Shown one piece after another: positions 25,412 through 56,057 of a DNA stretch of 64,000 nucleotides. Origin of the DNA: Amphritea japonica ATCC BAA-1530 (GTDB lineage Bacteria; Pseudomonadota; Gammaproteobacteria; Pseudomonadales; Balneatricaceae). The stretch spans positions 930,001-994,000 of the forward strand of contig NZ_AP014545.1 in NCBI RefSeq assembly GCF_016592435.1, in the 5' to 3' direction. A program made the position numbers and the translations under genes. Each line of letters begins with the position of its first letter. The stretch's first letter is position 1. The notes beneath the pieces are model-generated. The model had not been told where the DNA came from. It did not search any database and saw only the letters and a program-made list of their open reading frames with translations.

Positions 25412-25602
25412 AATCAGTACTGCTGATTGATCGCTCTTTCGAACCCCGGATCTACCCTGTAGGAGGCGTGCCCTCACGCCGATAAAGCCCTTAGTAGGCA
25501 CTAAACTAAAAGAATCGCTGCGAGAGGGTAGCTTCTAAAAGCACATTGTAGGAGCGGCTTACAGCCGCGATAATCTAGCAAGAATAACAAAAGAGCGTTT
25601 TA

Positions 25603-25679
25603 ACCACAGAGAGCACGAAGGGCACAGAGAGGAGCTTTCTTAAGTGGGTTTTCTCTGTGTTCTCGGTGTCCTCTGTGGT
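25603..25679. repeat. family B element (ACCACAGAG...CTCTGTGGT), copy 1
   Basis: Imperfect inverted repeat. The left arm begins ACCACAGAGAGCACGAAG and the right arm ends GGTGTCCTCTGTGGT; the loop is T/A-rich. Part of tandem unit 1. Confidence 0.9.
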
Positions 25680-25894
25680 GGTGTTTTATTTTTCACCGCA
25701 AGGGCGCAGCTCCTACAAATGCCCGCTCTTTCAGGCCTAGATTCTACCCTGTAGGAGGCGTGCCCTCACGCCGATGAAGTCCTTAGTAGGCATCAATCCA
25801 AATGAATCGCTGCGAGAACGTAGCTTCTAAAAGCACATTGTAGGAGCGGCTTACCGCCGCGATAATCTAGCAAGAATAACAAAAGAGCGTTTTA

Positions 25895-25971
25895 ACCACA
25901 GAGAGCACGAAGGACACAGAGAGGAGCTTTCTTAAGTGGATTTTCTCTGTGTTCTCGGTGTCCTCTGTGGT
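25895..25971. repeat. family B element, copy 2
   Basis: Same element in tandem unit 2; ACCACAGAGAGCACGAAG at the left and CTCTGTGGT at the right. Confidence 0.9.
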
Positions 25972-26186
25972 GGTGTTTTATTTTTCACCGCAAGGGCACT
26001 GCTTCTACAAATGCCTGCTCTTTCAGGCCTAGATTCTACCCGGTAGGAGGCGTGCCCTCACGCCGATGAAGCCCTTAGTAGGCATCAAACCAAATGAATC
26101 GCTGCGAGAGCGTAGCTTCTAAAAGCACATTGTAGGAGCGGCTTACAGCCGCGATAATCTAGCAAGAATAACAAAAGAGCGTTTTA

Positions 26187-26263
26187 ACCACAGAGAGCAC
26201 GAAGGACACAGAGAGGAGCTTTCTCAAGTGGATTTTCTCTGTGTTCTCGGTGTCCTCTGTGGT
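26187..26263. repeat. family B element, copy 3
   Basis: Same element in tandem unit 3. Confidence 0.9.
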
Positions 26264-26458
26264 GGTATTTGATTTTATCGTCCCTAAGAAGGAACTCCTG
26301 CAACGGGGAAGGTTCGGACAACGGACTTAGGCTAATTGCTATGCTAATATTTCCGCCATAGAAGTACGCTTTAATCAGTACTTATTTATTTCGCAATTGC
26401 AGCATTATAGTTGGTATAATTCTGTCCAAATGGAATTGCTGCAAAGGAAAAACAGCGC

Positions 26459-27837: not shown

Positions 27838-27915
27838 ACCACAGAGAACACGAAGAGCACTGAGAAGAGCTTTAAATAAAAAGTTTACCTTTGTGTACTC
27901 GGTGTTCTCAGTGGT
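27838..27915. repeat. family B element, copy 4
   Basis: ACCACAGAGAACACGAAGAG at the left; ...CTCGGTGTTCTCAGTGGT at the right. Diverged arms still pair. Confidence 0.85.
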
Positions 27916-27995: not shown

Positions 27996-28072
27996 ACCAC
28001 CGAGCACACAGAGATCACCGAGAAGAGACGTCGCAAATGGGTCTCCTCTGTGATCTCCGTGTCCTCAGTGGT
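27996..28072. repeat. family B element, copy 5
   Basis: ACCACCGAGCACACAGAG at the left and CCGTGTCCTCAGTGGT at the right. Confidence 0.83.
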
Positions 28073-29553: not shown

Positions 29554-29668
29554 ACCACAGAGGACACAGAGACCCACAGAGAAATGCTTAATGTGTACGC
29601 CAAGGGCAATAAAAGGTTTTTAATAAGTGATTTGTTTTTCCTCGGTGTAACTCTGTGTTCTCTGTGGT
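29554..29668. repeat. family B element, copy 6
   Basis: Long form. The left arm ACCACAGAGGACACAGAG is followed by a second partial arm CCCACAGAGA; the right arm ends CTCTGTGTTCTCTGTGGT. Confidence 0.87.
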
Positions 29669-29808: not shown

Positions 29809-29935
29809 ACCACAGAGGTCACAGGGACCCACAGAGAAATGCTTAATGTGTATGCCAAGGGCACAGAGGTCCAAAGAAAAGGTTTTTTAATAAGTGATTT
29901 GTTTTTCCTCGGTGTAACTCTGTGTTCTCTGTGGT
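29809..29935. repeat. family B element, copy 7
   Basis: Tandem partner of copy 6, slightly longer, with the same arms. Confidence 0.87.
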
Positions 29936-30017
29936 TAGAGACTTTTATTTTTAAGGTCTCAGACAGGCGAAGCGTCCAACCACGGACATCAGTCCATTAA
30001 TGAACATGGAGGTTCAT

Positions 30018-31403
30018 ATGATCGATATAAAACACCACGGCGCTGTTAACGGCGTCACCGGCTCATGTCATGAGCTATTTCTTAATGATGATACTAGTGT
30101 CCTGATAGACTGTGGTATGTTTCAGGGGGCAGAATCAGCCGGCGCCGAGTCTGATAATCTCAAGCTCAACTTCCCGATTACTACAGTTAAAGCGCTGTTT
30201 GTAACTCACTGTCATATAGATCATGTAGGGCGTATTCCTTCACTGATTTCTGCAGGGTTTAACGGCCCCATCTATGCCAGTGAAGCAACTGCGCGGTTAT
30301 TGCCGTTAGTATTGGAAGATACCCTTAAGATAGGGGTTACCCGAGATAAGAACCTGATCAGACAGTTCTTAACCCTGTTACATCAGTTGATACAGCCGGT
30401 TGAATATCGCCAATGGCATCACGCAACTAGCTGTGACAATCTTAAATTCAGGTTTAACCCGGCAGGTCATATTCTGGGCTCTGCTTATATTGAGTTTGAC
30501 TGTCTCGTTGGTCAGCAGAAAGAGCGCATTCTATTCTCCGGTGACCTTGGTGCCCCTTACGCACCACTACTGCCAGCGCCAAAATCACCCTGGCGTACAG
30601 ATCGTTTAATCATCGAAAGCACCTACGGTGATAAGCAGCATGAGCAGCGTCGTATCCGGCGTCAAAACTTACAGCAGATCATCAGTCGTTGTTTAGAAGA
30701 TGCAGGCACAGTACTGATCCCCGCATTCAGTATTGGTCGAACCCAGGAGCTGCTCTATGAACTCGAAGATATTATCCACAGGCAGAAAGGCTCATCCTGG
30801 GAAGAGATTGACGTAATAGTTGATTCCCCATTGGCGGCGAAGTTTACAGAGCATTATCGTGAATTAAGCGATCTCTGGGATGCCGAAGCAAAATCGCGAA
30901 AAATAGAAGGGCGCCATCCGTTATCGTTTGATCAGTTAATCACCATCGATTCCCATGCAGACCACCTGAAACTGGTTAACTATCTCAAAAGCAGTGGAAG
31001 GCCTGCTATCGTTATTGCTGCAAGTGGAATGTGTGCTGGTGGACGGATTGTAAACTACCTAACAGAACTGCTGCCAGACCCACGAACAGATGTCCTTTTT
31101 GTGGGCTATCAGGCCAAAGGAACGCCCGGTCGAGATATACAAAAATACGGTGCTGAGAAATACAGAGTGAGCGGTGGCTATGTTTATTTAGATAATCAAA
31201 AGATAGATATCAAAGCCCAGGTACACAGTATCAGCGGCTACTCCGCCCACGCCGATCAAAAAGACCTTATTAACTTTGTAAAACGTATGGGTCACAAACC
31301 AAAAGAGATCCGAATCGTCCACGGCGACAACGATGCTAAACGGATTTTGAAGACTGAGATGCAAGAGATTTGCCCAGCAGCCGAGATATTAATTCCGGGT
31401 TAG
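30018..31403 (+). CDS. MBL-fold/beta-CASP hydrolase (RNA-specificity domain)
   Basis: 461 residues from ATG 30018, which has GGAGG 5 nt upstream; ATGs at 30000 and 30006 lack an SD. The zinc motif THCHIDHVGRIP is near 64. AGHILGSAY, FSGDLGAP and the beta-CASP blocks ESTYGDKQHE, PAFSIGRTQELL and ASGMCAGGRIVNYL are present, followed by the RMMBL C-terminus SISGYSAHADQKDL. The family resembles CPSF73/Ysh1-type nucleases and related bacterial proteins of unclear substrate. It is bracketed by family B copies on both sides. No link to polysaccharide synthesis can be argued from sequence. Confidence 0.9.
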   Translation: MIDIKHHGAVNGVTGSCHELFLNDDTSVLIDCGMFQGAESAGAESDNLKLNFPITTVKALFVTHCHIDHVGRIPSLISAGFNGPIYASEATARLLPLVLEDTLKIGVTRDKNLIRQFLTLLHQLIQPVEYRQWHHATSCDNLKFRFNPAGHILGSAYIEFDCLVGQQKERILFSGDLGAPYAPLLPAPKSPWRTDRLIIESTYGDKQHEQRRIRRQNLQQIISRCLEDAGTVLIPAFSIGRTQELLYELEDIIHRQKGSSWEEIDVIVDSPLAAKFTEHYRELSDLWDAEAKSRKIEGRHPLSFDQLITIDSHADHLKLVNYLKSSGRPAIVIAASGMCAGGRIVNYLTELLPDPRTDVLFVGYQAKGTPGRDIQKYGAEKYRVSGGYVYLDNQKIDIKAQVHSISGYSAHADQKDLINFVKRMGHKPKEIRIVHGDNDAKRILKTEMQEICPAAEILIPG

Positions 31404-31442: not shown

Positions 31443-31538
31443 ACCACAGAGGACACGGAGGACCACAGAGAGGGGCTTTAAGTTCTTGCTATGCTTTGCC
31501 TTTGCCTTTGTCTCTGTGTCCTTTGTGTACTCTGTGGT
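31443..31538. repeat. family B element, copy 8 (left flank of the GxxExxY gene)
   Basis: ACCACAGAGGACACGGAG with a second ACCACAGAGA inside; the right arm ends GTGTACTCTGTGGT. It ends 55 bp before the GxxExxY start codon. Confidence 0.88.
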
Positions 31539-31593
31539 GATATCTGTTTTGTTTGTGTCACTATTGATTGAGTTGTTAAAAATGGAGGTCGAT

Positions 31594-31965
31594 ATGGAAA
31601 TGGATTTTCTGACAAATAAGGTTATAGGCTGCGCTATTGAAGTTCATCGACAGCTAGGGCCTGGGTTGCTTGAGTCGAGCTATGAACGTTGTCTGATGTA
31701 TGAATTGGCACTCGCTGGGTTGGATGCTAAGGCCCAGGTATTGCTGCCTATTCATTATAAGGGTATGAGTATTGAGGCCGGTTATCGAATAGATATTTTG
31801 TTTCCTGATAAGCTTGTTCTTGAACTGAAAGCTGTGGATAAACTATTGCCAATCCATACAGCGCAGTTAATTACTTACTTGAAATTATCAGGGGTTAAAA
31901 CGGGTCTAATAATTAACTTTAATGTTAACAAACTGACGAATGGCTTGAAGCGCGTAGTCCTATGA
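31594..31965 (+). CDS. GxxExxY family protein (PD-(D/E)XK nuclease-like)
   Basis: 123 residues from ATG 31594, with GGAGG 5 nt upstream. The frame open upstream is repeat sequence (element copy 8). The family signature is GLLESSY (24-30). A nuclease-like core follows: YRIDILF with Asp67, then LVLELKAV with Glu77 and Lys79, fitting D-x(n)-E-x-K, and QLITYLKLSGVKTGLIINFN. The family (PF13366 type) is widespread in multicopy and has no established function. It is placed inside a cluster of family B repeats: one copy 55 bp upstream, then two whole and two half copies from 46 bp downstream. This resembles RAYT genes among REPs; the link is inference. Confidence 0.88.
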   Translation: MEMDFLTNKVIGCAIEVHRQLGPGLLESSYERCLMYELALAGLDAKAQVLLPIHYKGMSIEAGYRIDILFPDKLVLELKAVDKLLPIHTAQLITYLKLSGVKTGLIINFNVNKLTNGLKRVVL

Positions 31966-32010
31966 GTTGCATCTCATATAGGGCGAAGGGCTGATTAGAA
32001 AGAGCTTTGC

Positions 32011-32086
32011 ACCACAGAGAACACGAAGGGCACAGAGGAAGGGTTTTCTAAATTGGTTTACTTCGTGCTCTCGGTGTCCTCTGTGG
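32011..32086. repeat. family B element, copy 9
   Basis: ACCACAGAGAACACGAAGG at the left; CTCGGTGTCCTCTGTGGT at the right. Confidence 0.9.
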
Positions 32087-32126
32087 TTCATTATTTAGAG
32101 TGTTTGGGGCTTAAAAAGATCGATTT

Positions 32127-32222
32127 ACCACAGAGTACACAAAGGACACAGAGAAACCTTTTATGTTGTCGATCTTTTAAGTGCCCTTAGCATGGCCCCT
32201 GGGTACGGTGTCCTCTGTAGTT
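32127..32222. repeat. family B element, copy 10, with inserted module
   Basis: ACCACAGAGTACACAAAGG at the left; GGTGTCCTCTGTAGT at the right. The loop is longer than in copy 9 because it carries the 19-bp module at 32188-32206. Confidence 0.8.
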
Positions 32223-32287
32223 AACATTATTTATAGATCTCGCTGCTAAAAGCAGCTCCTTCAGAGATTAAACCTTAAATTGGCTTT

Positions 32288-32317
32288 TTCTCTGTGCTCT
32301 CGGTGTCCTCTGTGGTG
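32288..32317. repeat. family B half element
   Basis: Right arm only: CTCTGTGCTCTCGGTGTCC followed by TCTGTGGT, with no left arm. Confidence 0.75.
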
Positions 32318-32397
32318 ATATTTTTTTGGTAGATACGCTTTACAACAGGTAACACTGAGAGGTCTGTCTGTATAAGTGGATATCGAGAGTGTGCCCT

Positions 32398-33801
32398 TCA
32401 AAGTGATTGGCTTTTCCTCTGTGCTCTCTGTGTCCTCTGTGGTGAATTTATATCTTTCTTATGAAACAAAGAAATCTGCCCCAATGCCAATATCACCATA
32501 AAAGTCGCGGCATTCGCCGGAATCTGCAGATTAAAATCAACCGTCGAATGTATAGCTAACGCGATAATCGCCATCGTAGCGCTAAAGGCAATGCCGCGCA
32601 TCAGAGGTGTTTTGCGTTTCATCTGGGCCTTGATTGCCGAGATAAAGACTAACAACACCGCCAGTATCAAACAGCCGGTAACAATGATTCCGTACTCACT
32701 GGCGAACTCAAAATAATCGTTATGGGCATGGTCGTAAAAGCTACGGCCAGCATCGTATTCACGGTATGCCGGGAAGTTGGTGTAGTAAGTGCCAGCCCCT
32801 GTTCCTGTGAATAAATTATCTTGAATGGCGGTTAATGTGTAAGCGTTTACTTCGTCTCTGGTCTCTGTTTCTTCGCTGGTGGTTTGCAGGCGCTCTGCAA
32901 CTTTCTCAACGCCAAAGAAGGTGCCGACGACAAATATATCGATAACAATCAAACTGCTGATCAGAATAATAGTCGCTTTAGTCGAGCGCTTACTCAAGAA
33001 TAGAGTGATGAGACCTGCAAGGGTTAAGCTGGCAAAAAAGGCGGTATTCCCCATACGTGAATGAGTCATGACAAGGCCTGCAACCATGATAATAAGTAGT
33101 ATTCTTAATCTGGCTTTGGGTCCTAACAGGGTGGTTAATAACCGTCGAGAATGCTCTCGCCAGTTTGAAGCGGATTGCAGGTTAAGTGTCGATATCATAA
33201 TGCCGATACCGAGGCTCAGGGTAAGTACCAGATAGCCGGCAAGGTGGTTCCGGTTAACGAAAGTCCCGGTGGCCAGGCGAGTATAAGCATCTTTAGGTAT
33301 CAAAAACGAATACTCAATTCCCGTCAGTGTCATCATGCTGCCGTAAACTGCTTGAAACAGTCCGCAGAAAACCAGTGTGTAAGCGAGTAGCTTTATGCGC
33401 TTTTGACTGTTTACCAGTAGGAGAGCCAGACAAAAAATTAAGATAAAGGAGATACCGAGCATTCCTGCCTGTGCACTTGCGTACGAGTCGACAGAGCCGA
33501 GTGGGTTATCGCTAGAAACAGCACTTTGGATAAAAGCGAAAACAGGTGCGGTACTGAATAAGGCGATAACAGGGAGGCTGTTTTTAATGCTCTTGCTTAT
33601 TACGACCTTGTTTAGGCTAAAGAGATACAGCCAGGCAGCACTGATAAATAACGCACCGCAACACAAAATTGACATGGCCCAGAGTTTATTGCTACCCAGC
33701 GGTAGAGGAATCCAGGCTAACAACACAAGAAAAGCAATAAAAATCCAGCGATCGTGTATTGATGAACGGTCGCTGTGTTCAGAAGTAGATGTGTTGATCA
33801 T
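32398..33801 (-). CDS. O-antigen ligase/polymerase family membrane protein
   Basis: 467 residues from ATG 33801; a TTG 15 nt upstream is less likely. About 11 membrane helices. The Wzy_C/WaaL block is visible: VNRNHLAGYLVLTLSLG, then a large periplasmic loop with FTGTGAGTYYTNFPAYR and YDHAHNDYFEFASEYGI, whose Arg and His residues are typical of the ligase/polymerase loop. The last ~16 residues (INSPQRTQRAQRKSQSL) are encoded by a family B half element, so the native C-terminus was replaced by repeat DNA. It joins or polymerises glycan at the periplasmic face. It is transcribed away from the rest of the locus. Confidence 0.88.
   Translation of the reverse strand: MINTSTSEHSDRSSIHDRWIFIAFLVLLAWIPLPLGSNKLWAMSILCCGALFISAAWLYLFSLNKVVISKSIKNSLPVIALFSTAPVFAFIQSAVSSDNPLGSVDSYASAQAGMLGISFILIFCLALLLVNSQKRIKLLAYTLVFCGLFQAVYGSMMTLTGIEYSFLIPKDAYTRLATGTFVNRNHLAGYLVLTLSLGIGIMISTLNLQSASNWREHSRRLLTTLLGPKARLRILLIIMVAGLVMTHSRMGNTAFFASLTLAGLITLFLSKRSTKATIILISSLIVIDIFVVGTFFGVEKVAERLQTTSEETETRDEVNAYTLTAIQDNLFTGTGAGTYYTNFPAYREYDAGRSFYDHAHNDYFEFASEYGIIVTGCLILAVLLVFISAIKAQMKRKTPLMRGIAFSATMAIIALAIHSTVDFNLQIPANAATFMVILALGQISLFHKKDINSPQRTQRAQRKSQSL
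32411..32443. repeat. family B half element inside a gene 3' end
   Basis: CCTCTGTGCTCTCTGTGTCC followed by TCTGTGGTG. Read on the minus strand it codes the basic tail of the ligase-like protein and leads to its stop codon at 32398. Confidence 0.8.
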
Positions 33802-33836
33802 AGTTCGCGAATACAAGTGTAGATATTTTTAGAGGG

Positions 33837-38213: not shown

Positions 38214-39298
38214 AAGTTCTTGGTGTCGTAACTCATAACAATATGGGGGGCGCCCAAAAAGCAATGGCCAAACTGCAGGCTCATGTAAAAGAGGCAGACT
38301 TCACGATTGTTTATCTTTACGGGATAGGGGAAGAAGGCGGCATGATCAATGGGGACGTTTTGGTTGGTTCGAAGAAGTCCTTAATAGTGAAACATCTGCT
38401 CATAGTCTTAAGGCTATTCGGTTATATCAGGAAAGAAAAGCCTGATGTTGTGATTTCGTTTCTGCCGTTGGCCAATGTTTTGGTGCCTCTAGTGGCGATG
38501 TTGTTGGGTGTAAGGGTAAGGGCAATATCCCACCGCAATCCGGTTTGGACCTATAATTGGGTATTGCGCTGGCTGGATCGTCTTTGGGGTTGTTGGGGAA
38601 TTTTCACCCACGTAATTGCCAACTCTGAAGCAGTGAAGAGTTCAGTGAACCATTATTCCTGCCGATACCGGAGAAAGTTGGTAGTGATCTATAACGGTAT
38701 ATCGAACGTAAACGGGGCTGATGATATTGATCATGTGCTGGATAAATACGGTATCTCCGATAAGAAGTATGTAGCTGCAATCGGACGGCTAAGCCAGCAG
38801 AAAAGATTTGACGTTTTGATCAGCGCCCTGGCAGAAGTTAAAGGTGTAAGTCTGGTTATCGCTGGGCATGGCGAGCTTTATGAAGAGCTCAGTATGCTTG
38901 CAAAATCAGAGGGTGTTGACGATCGTGTTTACTTCCTTGGGGCTCTACCGCACGATGATGTCATAGCGATCATGCGAGGAGCTGAATTGTACCTGCAGCC
39001 AAGCGAGTTCGAGGGGCAGAGTAATTCGTTACTCGAAGCTATTAGTATTGGCTCTGTGGTTGTTTCCAGCAATATAGATCCCCAAATAGAAGTACTTTGC
39101 GCCTATGATAGTGAGGCTGGGGTTATTGTTGAATCATGGGACCCGAGTGCATGGGCTGAATCGATAAATAATGTTTTGGCCATTCCCTACGAGCGGGATC
39201 GTTTACATAGAAATGCATTAGAACGCTCTAAAGATTTCTCTGTTGAAAAAATGGCGTCTTCCTACTTGGGGGTATTCAAGGATGCTCTCGCAGAATAA
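38210..39298 (+). CDS. GT4 family glycosyltransferase
   Basis: 362 residues, start overlapping the previous stop (ATGA). N-terminal THNNMGGAQKAM acceptor loop, IGRLSQQKRFDVLI, IAGHGELYEEL, VYFLGALPHDDVIAIMRGAELYLQPSEFEGQSNSLLEAI with the EX7E motif. Probably adds another sugar of the repeat unit. Its end overlaps the polymerase gene by 17 nt. Confidence 0.92.
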   Translation: MKVLGVVTHNNMGGAQKAMAKLQAHVKEADFTIVYLYGIGEEGGMINGDVLVGSKKSLIVKHLLIVLRLFGYIRKEKPDVVISFLPLANVLVPLVAMLLGVRVRAISHRNPVWTYNWVLRWLDRLWGCWGIFTHVIANSEAVKSSVNHYSCRYRRKLVVIYNGISNVNGADDIDHVLDKYGISDKKYVAAIGRLSQQKRFDVLISALAEVKGVSLVIAGHGELYEELSMLAKSEGVDDRVYFLGALPHDDVIAIMRGAELYLQPSEFEGQSNSLLEAISIGSVVVSSNIDPQIEVLCAYDSEAGVIVESWDPSAWAESINNVLAIPYERDRLHRNALERSKDFSVEKMASSYLGVFKDALAE

Positions 39299-46766: not shown

Positions 46767-47426
46767 TTGTAGGAGGTACGCCCTCGTGCCGATTCATTTG
46801 TCTTGGTGCTTGCTGAGGGTTTTATCGGCGTGAGGGCACGCCTCCTACAGGTTAGAAATCGAAGTCCGAAAAGCGGTTTTTTGTAGGAAGTACGCCTCGT
46901 GCCGATTCTTATAGGTTGGTGGATGTGAGGGTTTTATTGGCGTGGGGGCACGCCTCCTACAGGTTAGAAATCGAGCTCCGAAAAAGCGGGTTTTTGTAGG
47001 AGGTACGCCTCGTGCCGATTCATTTGTTTTGGTGCTTGCTGAGGATTATATCGGCGTGAGGGCACGCCTCCTACAGGTTAGAAACCGTAGTCCGAACGTG
47101 TTGCTTGTCCGAAGTCCGAAAAGCGGGTTTTTGTAGGAGGTACGCCCTCGTGCCGGTTCATTTGTCTTAGTGCTTGCTGAGGGTTTTATCGGCGTGGGGG
47201 TACGCCTCCTACAGAGAGCGAAAAGATTCTAATCACAGAGGTCACAGAGAAAATCGATTCAATAAAGCCCTTCTCTGTGTCCTTCGTGTTCTCTGTGGTA
47301 AAAATCTTATTAAATAGCCCTTGGTACCCAGAGGGCATGATAAAGGGTCTCCTACAGGGTAGATGGTTTTGTAGGAGCTGCGTCTCGCTGCGATTTGGTT
47401 TATCGCCCCTGGAAGGGGCTCCTACA
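46767..47426. repeat. family A array (four inverted pairs) plus single elements
   Basis: Each unit is a TGTAGGAGGTACGCC-type hairpin, a spacer of about 50 bp (CATTTGT.TTGGTGCTTGCTGAGG) and an inverted partner GGCGTGAGGGCACGCC ending TCCTACA, then GGTTAGAAATCGAAGTCCGAAAAGCGG. Unit starts at 46769, 46881, 46995 and 47132 give periods of 112, 114 and 137 bp. Further elements lie at 47323-47355 (containing the GGTACCCAGAGGGCATGA module), 47371 and 47405; the last is only 12 bp from the cysNC stop and may act as its 3' hairpin. The frame of 64 codons at 46942 is repeat sequence. Confidence 0.92.
47232..47299. repeat. family B element, copy 13
   Basis: ATCACAGAGGTCACAGAGA at the left; TCTCTGTGTCCTTCGTGTTC then TCTGTGGTA at the right. 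The only family B copy beyond 33 kb. Confidence 0.85.
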
Positions 47427-55610: not shown

Positions 55611-56057
55611 ATGAAAGGGAATTCATCTGCTCTGCGAAAAGGTCGGTTTTCTGAAGCCGGCCGTATCTATCTGGTTACTTTTGTAACCTGTCAAAGAAAC
55701 GCTATTTTTGATGATTTTTATTTAGGGCGACTGCTAGTTGATGTTATCCGAAAAGAATCACAATTTACCGATACATTGGCTTTCGTCGTAATGCCTGATC
55801 ATGTGCATTGGTTGGTACAGTTAAAATTTAAATCATTAAGTGACACTGTGAAAACAGTAAAATCGGTTTCTTCTAGAAAAATACAGAAAGAAACGGGAGC
55901 GCAAGAGCGTGTCTGGCAAAAGGGTTTTCATGACCATGCGATTAGACGGGATGAGAATTTGGCTGGGGTGGCGCGATATATTGTTATGAATCCGGTTCGG
56001 GCAGAGTTAGTGAAAAGTGTCAGAGAGTATTCATTGTGGGATGCTGTTTGGGTATAG
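55611..56057 (+). CDS. REP-associated tyrosine transposase (RAYT)
   Basis: 148 residues, GGGAGG about 6 nt before the ATG. Y1/HUH nuclease: RIYLVTFVTCQRN (strand 1), FVVMPDHVHWLVQ with the HUH pair H64/H66, RKIQKETGAQERVWQKGFHDHAIR, and VARYIVMNPVRAELV with the candidate nucleophile Tyr123. RAYTs cleave and move REP hairpins in other bacteria and recognise a GTAG foot. Here it is flanked on both sides by GTAGGAG hairpins, so family A is its probable substrate. It is intact and not duplicated in the window. Confidence 0.93.
   Translation: MKGNSSALRKGRFSEAGRIYLVTFVTCQRNAIFDDFYLGRLLVDVIRKESQFTDTLAFVVMPDHVHWLVQLKFKSLSDTVKTVKSVSSRKIQKETGAQERVWQKGFHDHAIRRDENLAGVARYIVMNPVRAELVKSVREYSLWDAVWV

Follow-up and report, generated by a model that had tools for sequence, protein, structure and literature searches.

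Two kinds of described system combine a small gene with characteristic repeats. In repetitive extragenic palindromic (REP)/REPIN-RAYT systems, one small gene lies amid its own palindromic family and gene-less copies occupy gene gaps; some RAYT-like genes also carry long flanking terminal inverted repeats (PMC3733652). Intervening sequences (IVSs) of rRNA with an S23p/IVP gene are about 0.4-0.5 kb long, with one small open reading frame (ORF) and inverted arms containing tandem repeats. A published account describes a terminal stem of 28 bp, heptamers in tandem ahead of the ORF and excision by RNase III, terms them selfish and proposes mobility of the ORF (PMC4990558). In this study, we analysed a stretch of 64,000 nucleotides from Amphritea japonica ATCC BAA-1530 (NZ_AP014545.1, positions 930,001 to 994,000 of the forward strand; hereafter the window), in which a gene of the GxxExxY family lies among palindromic repeats that we call family B. 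GxxExxY is a named family without a function, and the open-access passages found mention it only in passing. In open-access full text, a search that leaves most subscription papers and preprints outside, we found no report of a unit in which inverted arms enclose such a gene, and no mention of PDDEXK_3; three longer arm sequences did not occur among the literature matches listed. We consider it fairly probable that gene and arms together make up a single compact, selfish insertion element roughly 0.5 kb long, that the arms are the DNA sites of the protein, that cutting drives movement, and that family B consists of gene-less derivatives. Should gene and arms prove to be a single element, many genes annotated as GxxExxY protein and many odd palindromes would be explained, and a new single-protein route of DNA movement would become testable.

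The gene (31594-31965, + strand) encodes 123 amino acids with the motif GLLESSY and was the only GxxExxY gene that a PF13366 profile search found in the 3.83-Mb genome. Its product scored 145.8 bits against TIGR04256 (cut-off 35) and 141 bits against PF13366 (cut-off 22), and no other Pfam family matched, the HUH/Y1 transposase domain and PF05635 included. Conservation was assessed in an alignment of 66 of the 111 rows from the locus set described below, after manual removal of L073, whose match contains a stop, and of other rows. The results showed E77 in 66/66 sequences and D67 and K79 each in at least 90% of them, and all three residues were invariant or nearly so in a set of 14 sequences as well. 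These scores and residues bear out the 123-codon gene and the D67/E77/K79 core proposed in the initial annotation of the window. The protein has a Cas4-like fold; the Cas4 row alone stood out in the fold-comparison list, in which the absence of other families means little. Foldseek gave a weak match (E 0.31) to the catalytic domain of the PD-(D/E)XK homing endonuclease I-Bth0305I (3r3p), and a sequence search of solved structures returned no relative. Cas4 proteins have four conserved cysteines for an iron-sulfur cluster. Among the 66 GxxExxY sequences, at most two alignment columns held cysteine in at least 50% of rows, and no Cas4-type set of four was present, so that with about 120 residues and at most two such columns the family differs from Cas4/RecB nucleases. 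No Cas genes were noticed at GxxExxY loci, though no search was aimed at Cas genes. Relatives of the window protein were found in 8 of 72,556 plasmid records, and none was matched in phages.

We then compared the flanks of 111 GxxExxY loci, comprising 31 gammaproteobacterial loci (30 opened matches of the class, the window's own included, and one congener) and 80 that ranked best among the 577 relatives given by a genome-contig scan. The loci span bacteria of many phyla and include three from archaea (L105, L110 and L113). Most loci carried, upstream of the gene, a short array that recurred in inverted form directly downstream, placing the gene between two inverted arms. The upstream flank was aligned with the reverse complement of the locus's own downstream flank in 106 loci, five with short flanks being dropped. 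The median score was 41 for own flanks against 20 between different loci, and the observed mean was reached by 0/20000 permutations; the own downstream partner ranked first in 47/106 loci. Scores of at least 28 were obtained at 88/106 loci, the 95th percentile of control ORFs from the same loci being 26-28. At least two CRCNNAG units on each side, in inverted order, were found in 81/98 main-clade loci versus 12/336 control ORFs, and a CRCNNAG pair within 700 bp in 96/111 loci. A divergent protein clade, with eight loci, showed this CRCNNAG pattern in 0/8 cases, yet had inverted arms of its own kind. Inverted repeats thus occur at both ends of GxxExxY units, as expected of transposons and miniature inverted-repeat transposable elements (MITEs). 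Across 84 loci, L045 and L047 being left out, arm composition tracked protein identity with a Mantel r of 0.36 (0/5000 permutations), and with 0.31 in the main clade alone.

In the window's genome, the pattern CACAGAGNNCACNGAGG with at most one mismatch gave 49 matches, and a reversed control pattern gave 1. The 49 matches formed 28 clusters, 9 of which lay within 7 kb of the sole GxxExxY gene (binomial 7.5e-16); counting the tandem copies as one left 26 clusters, 7 of them within that distance (binomial 5e-12). Two expectations of the initial annotation were borne out, namely a physical link between gene and repeat family, here and across phyla, and covariation of the repeat sequence with protein clade.

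To identify occupied and empty sites, we surveyed the trpE-trpG junction in the family of genome G124, where a trpG query matched 36/40 genomes and 30 loci were opened. A sense-oriented GxxExxY gene occupied the junction in 14/30 loci (13 by matches of at least 122 residues, L162 by a match over 60), with gaps of 467-576 bp in the 13 parsed of these 14. Thirteen gene-less junctions had gaps of 2-48 bp. The junction measured 84 bp including a half arm in L158 and 189 bp of other sequence in L152, and that of L161 ran into unread bases. Between G289 and G290, members of one genus, the junction GxxExxY proteins were 49% identical and TrpG 84%, while G290 and G299, from different genera, gave 86% for both. 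Among the 111 loci, the gene stood before carB (5 loci), trpG (6), gatB (3) and accC (3), in sense in 17/17. A tree without rows that had stops or fewer than 105 residues did not group the trpE-trpG proteins in one clade (6 changes needed, shuffled mean 6.9) and had few firm forks; it lends no support to a single origin of all trpE-trpG copies, although such an origin may still hold.

For the site in the window itself, 10/16 congeners were found to have the upstream beta-CASP gene, and none of these 10 had the GxxExxY gene there; the same downstream gene was visible in 7/10, one by a 24-residue match only. These loci had 0-3 CRCNNAG pairs in congeners against 10 in the window's genome, and family B remnants were seen by eye in the beta-CASP gap of G317 and G319. 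In G321, the other congener with the protein, the gene lies between different neighbours, also amid palindromes. Occupied and empty orthologous sites, a second mark of transposons and MITEs, were accordingly both found. The beta-CASP nuclease-like gene (window 30000-31403) adjoins a GxxExxY gene in three marine genera (the others at L063 and L064), in opposite relative orientation in one of the three.

Like PD-(D/E)XK homing endonucleases, GxxExxY genes appear to have arrived repeatedly at conserved junctions; unlike them, they have no intron, and they have inverted arms of their own, many different sites and solo palindromes. These findings are compatible both with homing by a double-strand break at the conserved junctions and with transposition from the paired arms. 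In the element that we propose, an arm made of a 7-bp unit repeated two to four times at fixed intervals would be the DNA binding site of the Cas4/RecB-like nuclease, whose target is presumed to be its flanking arms. A cut at or between the paired arms would lead to the unit being copied or moved into gene gaps, tight operon junctions included, and gene-less palindromes of family B would move in trans or outlast the gene. Binding and cutting of the arms, movement driven by cutting and descent of the solo palindromes from the gene-bearing form are steps that we infer from the comparisons.

To distinguish DNA sites from an RNA stem, we compared the two arms in 68 main-clade loci with parsable arrays (L047 was excluded here and from the mismatch count). 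The arms of a locus matched in unit position 2 in 177/185 comparisons and in positions 4-5 in 125/185, and spacer length was equal in 109/117, all far above cross-locus pairing. Spacer sequence was shared in only 37/109, a level reached by 378/2000 shuffles. The spacers should match too if base pairing between the arms were the conserved feature, and they do not. Transition-type mismatches comprised 111 that G-U pairing would tolerate in sense RNA and 103 in antisense RNA, and this asymmetry revealed no constraint at the RNA level in GxxExxY arms, nor in the arms of the IVP loci described next (21 vs 29, p 0.32). Agreement in units and spacer length without a match in spacer sequence, together with the lack of G-U bias, favours arms that are recognised as tandem DNA sites by the protein; RNA stems might form as well.

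These data bear on a rival explanation, in which the GxxExxY unit is an IVS-like RNA element whose arms pair in RNA, RNase III trims the insert from the host transcript, which would make insertion into operons harmless, and the arms in DNA matter as RNA stem alone. We therefore examined genes of the 23S_rRNA_IVP (PF05635) family at 30 loci, L238-L267, 6 of which were too short and 24 usable. IVP genes were also bracketed by inverted arrays, whose different units recur about every 7 bp: the own partner ranked first in 18/24 loci, the score was at least 28 in 21/24, and CRCNNAG arrays on both sides were found in 0/24. One IVP locus, L267, lies within a 23S rRNA gene. This shared anatomy supports the RNA explanation, as do the stem of 28 bp, the tandem heptamers and the excision by RNase III published for IVSs (PMC4990558), the uniformly sense orientation at the carB, trpG, gatB and accC junctions, and the very stable RNA folds of six of seven family B palindromes (see below). 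An RNA stem should, on the other hand, favour paired spacers and a strand bias in G-U-compatible mismatches, and the arms showed neither; palindromes are also frequent outside operons, and rRNA context was found at none of the 19 GxxExxY loci scanned of the 111. We regard the RNA explanation as unlikely. At least four IVP loci outside rRNA (L259, L262, L263 and L264) lie between the end of an rpsI-like gene and a tRNA-like gene, as judged by eye, and belong to different families.

IVSs with S23p/IVP differ from the GxxExxY unit in their unrelated four-helix-bundle ORF, their other arm sequences and the location of known cases in rRNA. The GxxExxY system resembles REP/RAYT in outline without belonging to it; with rRNA IVSs it has the plan in common, not the protein. 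We put forward only tentatively a broader idea, that of a class of mobile elements lacking a known transposase, in which a Cas4-like nuclease of 120 amino acids reads arms made of its own 7-bp units and spreads in bacteria and archaea by homing into operon junctions and scattering gene-less palindromes, with S23p/IVP as a convergent second branch in which both the protein, a helical bundle, and the arms are different. Because S23p/IVP genes outside rRNA have a similar arm plan, the parallel would also bear on the origin of rRNA IVSs.

We next examined the distribution of protein and repeats. In the genus, the protein was present in 2/17 genomes, with 26 and 39 motif hits, and at least 7 motif hits were found in 8/17. 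In the class, 42/274 genomes had the protein and 23/274 had at least 5 motif hits, namely 12/42 genomes with the protein versus 11/232 without (odds ratio 8, p 1.5e-5). PF05635 was present in 57/274 class genomes, and at least 5 motif hits were found in 13/57 with it versus 10/217 without (odds ratio 6). Because PF05635 co-occurs about as strongly, the co-occurrence of protein and repeats is unspecific, and we dropped it as main evidence; repeat-rich genomes tend to carry several such gene families. The gap of one solo palindrome of the window's genome was also compared in 10 congeneric loci (that of the window's genome included; same two neighbours by eye), of which 3 held family B, 5 a different palindrome family (GTCCGA) and 2 neither, indicating that such gaps attract repeats generally. 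Palindromes of the GTCCGA/TCGGAC-unit family occupy congener gene gaps at L271, L273-L276, L175 and L189, and a CACAGAG palindrome is nested in an AAGTTCC-unit palindrome at L215 and L223 (genome G057).

The mixed occupancy of this gap, the near-equal co-occurrence of PF05635 and the palindromes in genomes without the protein would all be expected if the palindromes were an independent repeat family, spread otherwise, in or beside which the nuclease gene tends to land. This explanation appears quite improbable to us: arms flank the GxxExxY gene far more often than control ORFs, the divergent clade carries a distinct kind of arm, and unit and spacing match between the arms at a locus. Several observations nevertheless weigh against a single gene-and-arms element. 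At least 5 motif hits occurred in the 11/232 class genomes without the protein mentioned above, and 6/15 congeners without it carry 7 to 40, so that a correlation of copy number with the protein, which the initial annotation proposed to test, is not supported in simple form. Abundant repeats without the protein and without evident decay, which that annotation had named as a contrary sign, were thus seen in part. In G082, these searches found neither GxxExxY nor PF05635, and 3/4 solo elements that were read keep both arms. Furthermore, 17/98 main-clade loci failed the arm test, physical linkage alone could explain the covariation of arms and gene at least partly, and the window shows the gene between palindromes, a less usual form than a gene between plain arms. 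Target-site duplications and exact ends were sought by eye and none was clear, the gaps of relatives being too diverged.

In the window, ACCACAGAG occurred 21 times on both strands versus 0.41 expected, a number reached by 0/100 shuffles. We counted 11 whole family B palindromes and 2 half arms (Table 1), some arms having one mismatch, which agrees with the thirteen copies listed initially; a single partnerless 9-mer at 39052 probably reflects chance. The nearest palindromes lie 55 bp upstream and 45 bp downstream of the GxxExxY gene (55 and 46 bp in the initial annotation). Searching for a simple arm-loop-arm pattern whose gap was 2-30 bp gave 0 matches because the arms are arrays and the loops longer, and unit patterns were used instead. 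The earlier description as arm, A/T-rich loop and arm was incomplete in that each arm consists of a series of about three 7-bp units (CACAGAG, CACGAAG, CACGGAG and others) with short spacers between them. RNA folding of 7 of the 11 whole palindromes, those starting at 25603, 27838, 27996, 31443, 32011, 32127 and 47232, showed that 6 (z -4.6 to -9.1) were far stabler than shuffled sequences, the exception being the one at 32127. The palindromes are most simply explained as gene-less relatives of GxxExxY elements. They could instead serve the host as two-way terminators or mRNA stabilisers under selection, the role of the protein being unrelated, since they form stable hairpins in gene gaps, many directly after stop codons. 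A terminator, however, needs neither arms of tandem units at set spacing nor clade-specific units, and orthologous gaps differ between species; we judge a host function very improbable.

Table 1. Coordinates of the GxxExxY gene and the family B repeats in the window
Feature	Position	Strand	Evidence
GxxExxY gene, predicted minimal Cas4/RecB-like PD-(D/E)XK nuclease	31594..31965	+	profile scores, conserved residues, fold
Family B palindrome directly upstream of gene	31443..31538	.	RNA fold z -6.2
Family B palindrome directly downstream of gene	32011..32087	.	RNA fold z -5.8
Family B palindrome, right arm decayed	32127..32221	.	RNA fold z -1.2
Right half arm, no nearby left partner	32288..32316	-	
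Right half arm overlapping end of O-antigen-ligase-like frame	32414..32443	-	
Solo palindrome, 292-bp tandem copy 1	25603..25679	.	
Solo palindrome, 292-bp tandem copy 2	25895..25971	.	
Solo palindrome, 292-bp tandem copy 3	26187..26263	.	
Solo palindrome	27838..27915	.	
Solo palindrome, variant units (CACCGAG)	27996..28072	.	
Solo palindrome	29554..29668	.	
Solo palindrome, near-duplicate of 29554..29668	29809..29935	.	
Solo palindrome	47232..47299	.	

Window positions 25432-26307 comprise three tandem copies of a 292-bp unit, each with a family B palindrome as well as a GTAGGAG repeat, so these three palindromes are not independent copies. The left arm of the 32127 palindrome (32127-32154) is the exact 28-nt reverse complement of 31511-31538. 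This perfect inverted pair brackets the gene with its arms oriented the opposite way to the usual arrangement of arms around a gene, and may reflect inversion or recent copying. The O-antigen-ligase-like frame (32398-33816, - strand) passes through the half arm at its end, so that the repeat encodes the ligase-like C-terminal sequence PQRTQRAQRK.

Finally, we compared the GxxExxY loci with RAYT loci of the genus. As in REP/RAYT, members of the repeat family flank the GxxExxY gene. The two systems differ in that GxxExxY is a PD-(D/E)XK protein and RAYT a Y1/HUH protein, and in that each GxxExxY arm repeats a 7-bp unit in tandem at fixed spacing. Among 26 Y1_Tnp loci of the genus, a CRCNNAG pair lay within 700 bp of the middle in 1, and GTAGGAG repeats were present in 9; RAYT loci of the genus thus associate with GTAGGAG and not with CACAGAG. 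The initial idea of a second REP/RAYT-like system holds insofar as the GxxExxY repeats are separate from the RAYT loci of the genus; it does not hold for the layout, as the gene usually lies inside an inverted pair and not amid whole palindromes. The window also contains a separate REP/RAYT system, a RAYT-like (Y1_Tnp) gene at 55668-55982 flanked by GTAGGAG repeats.
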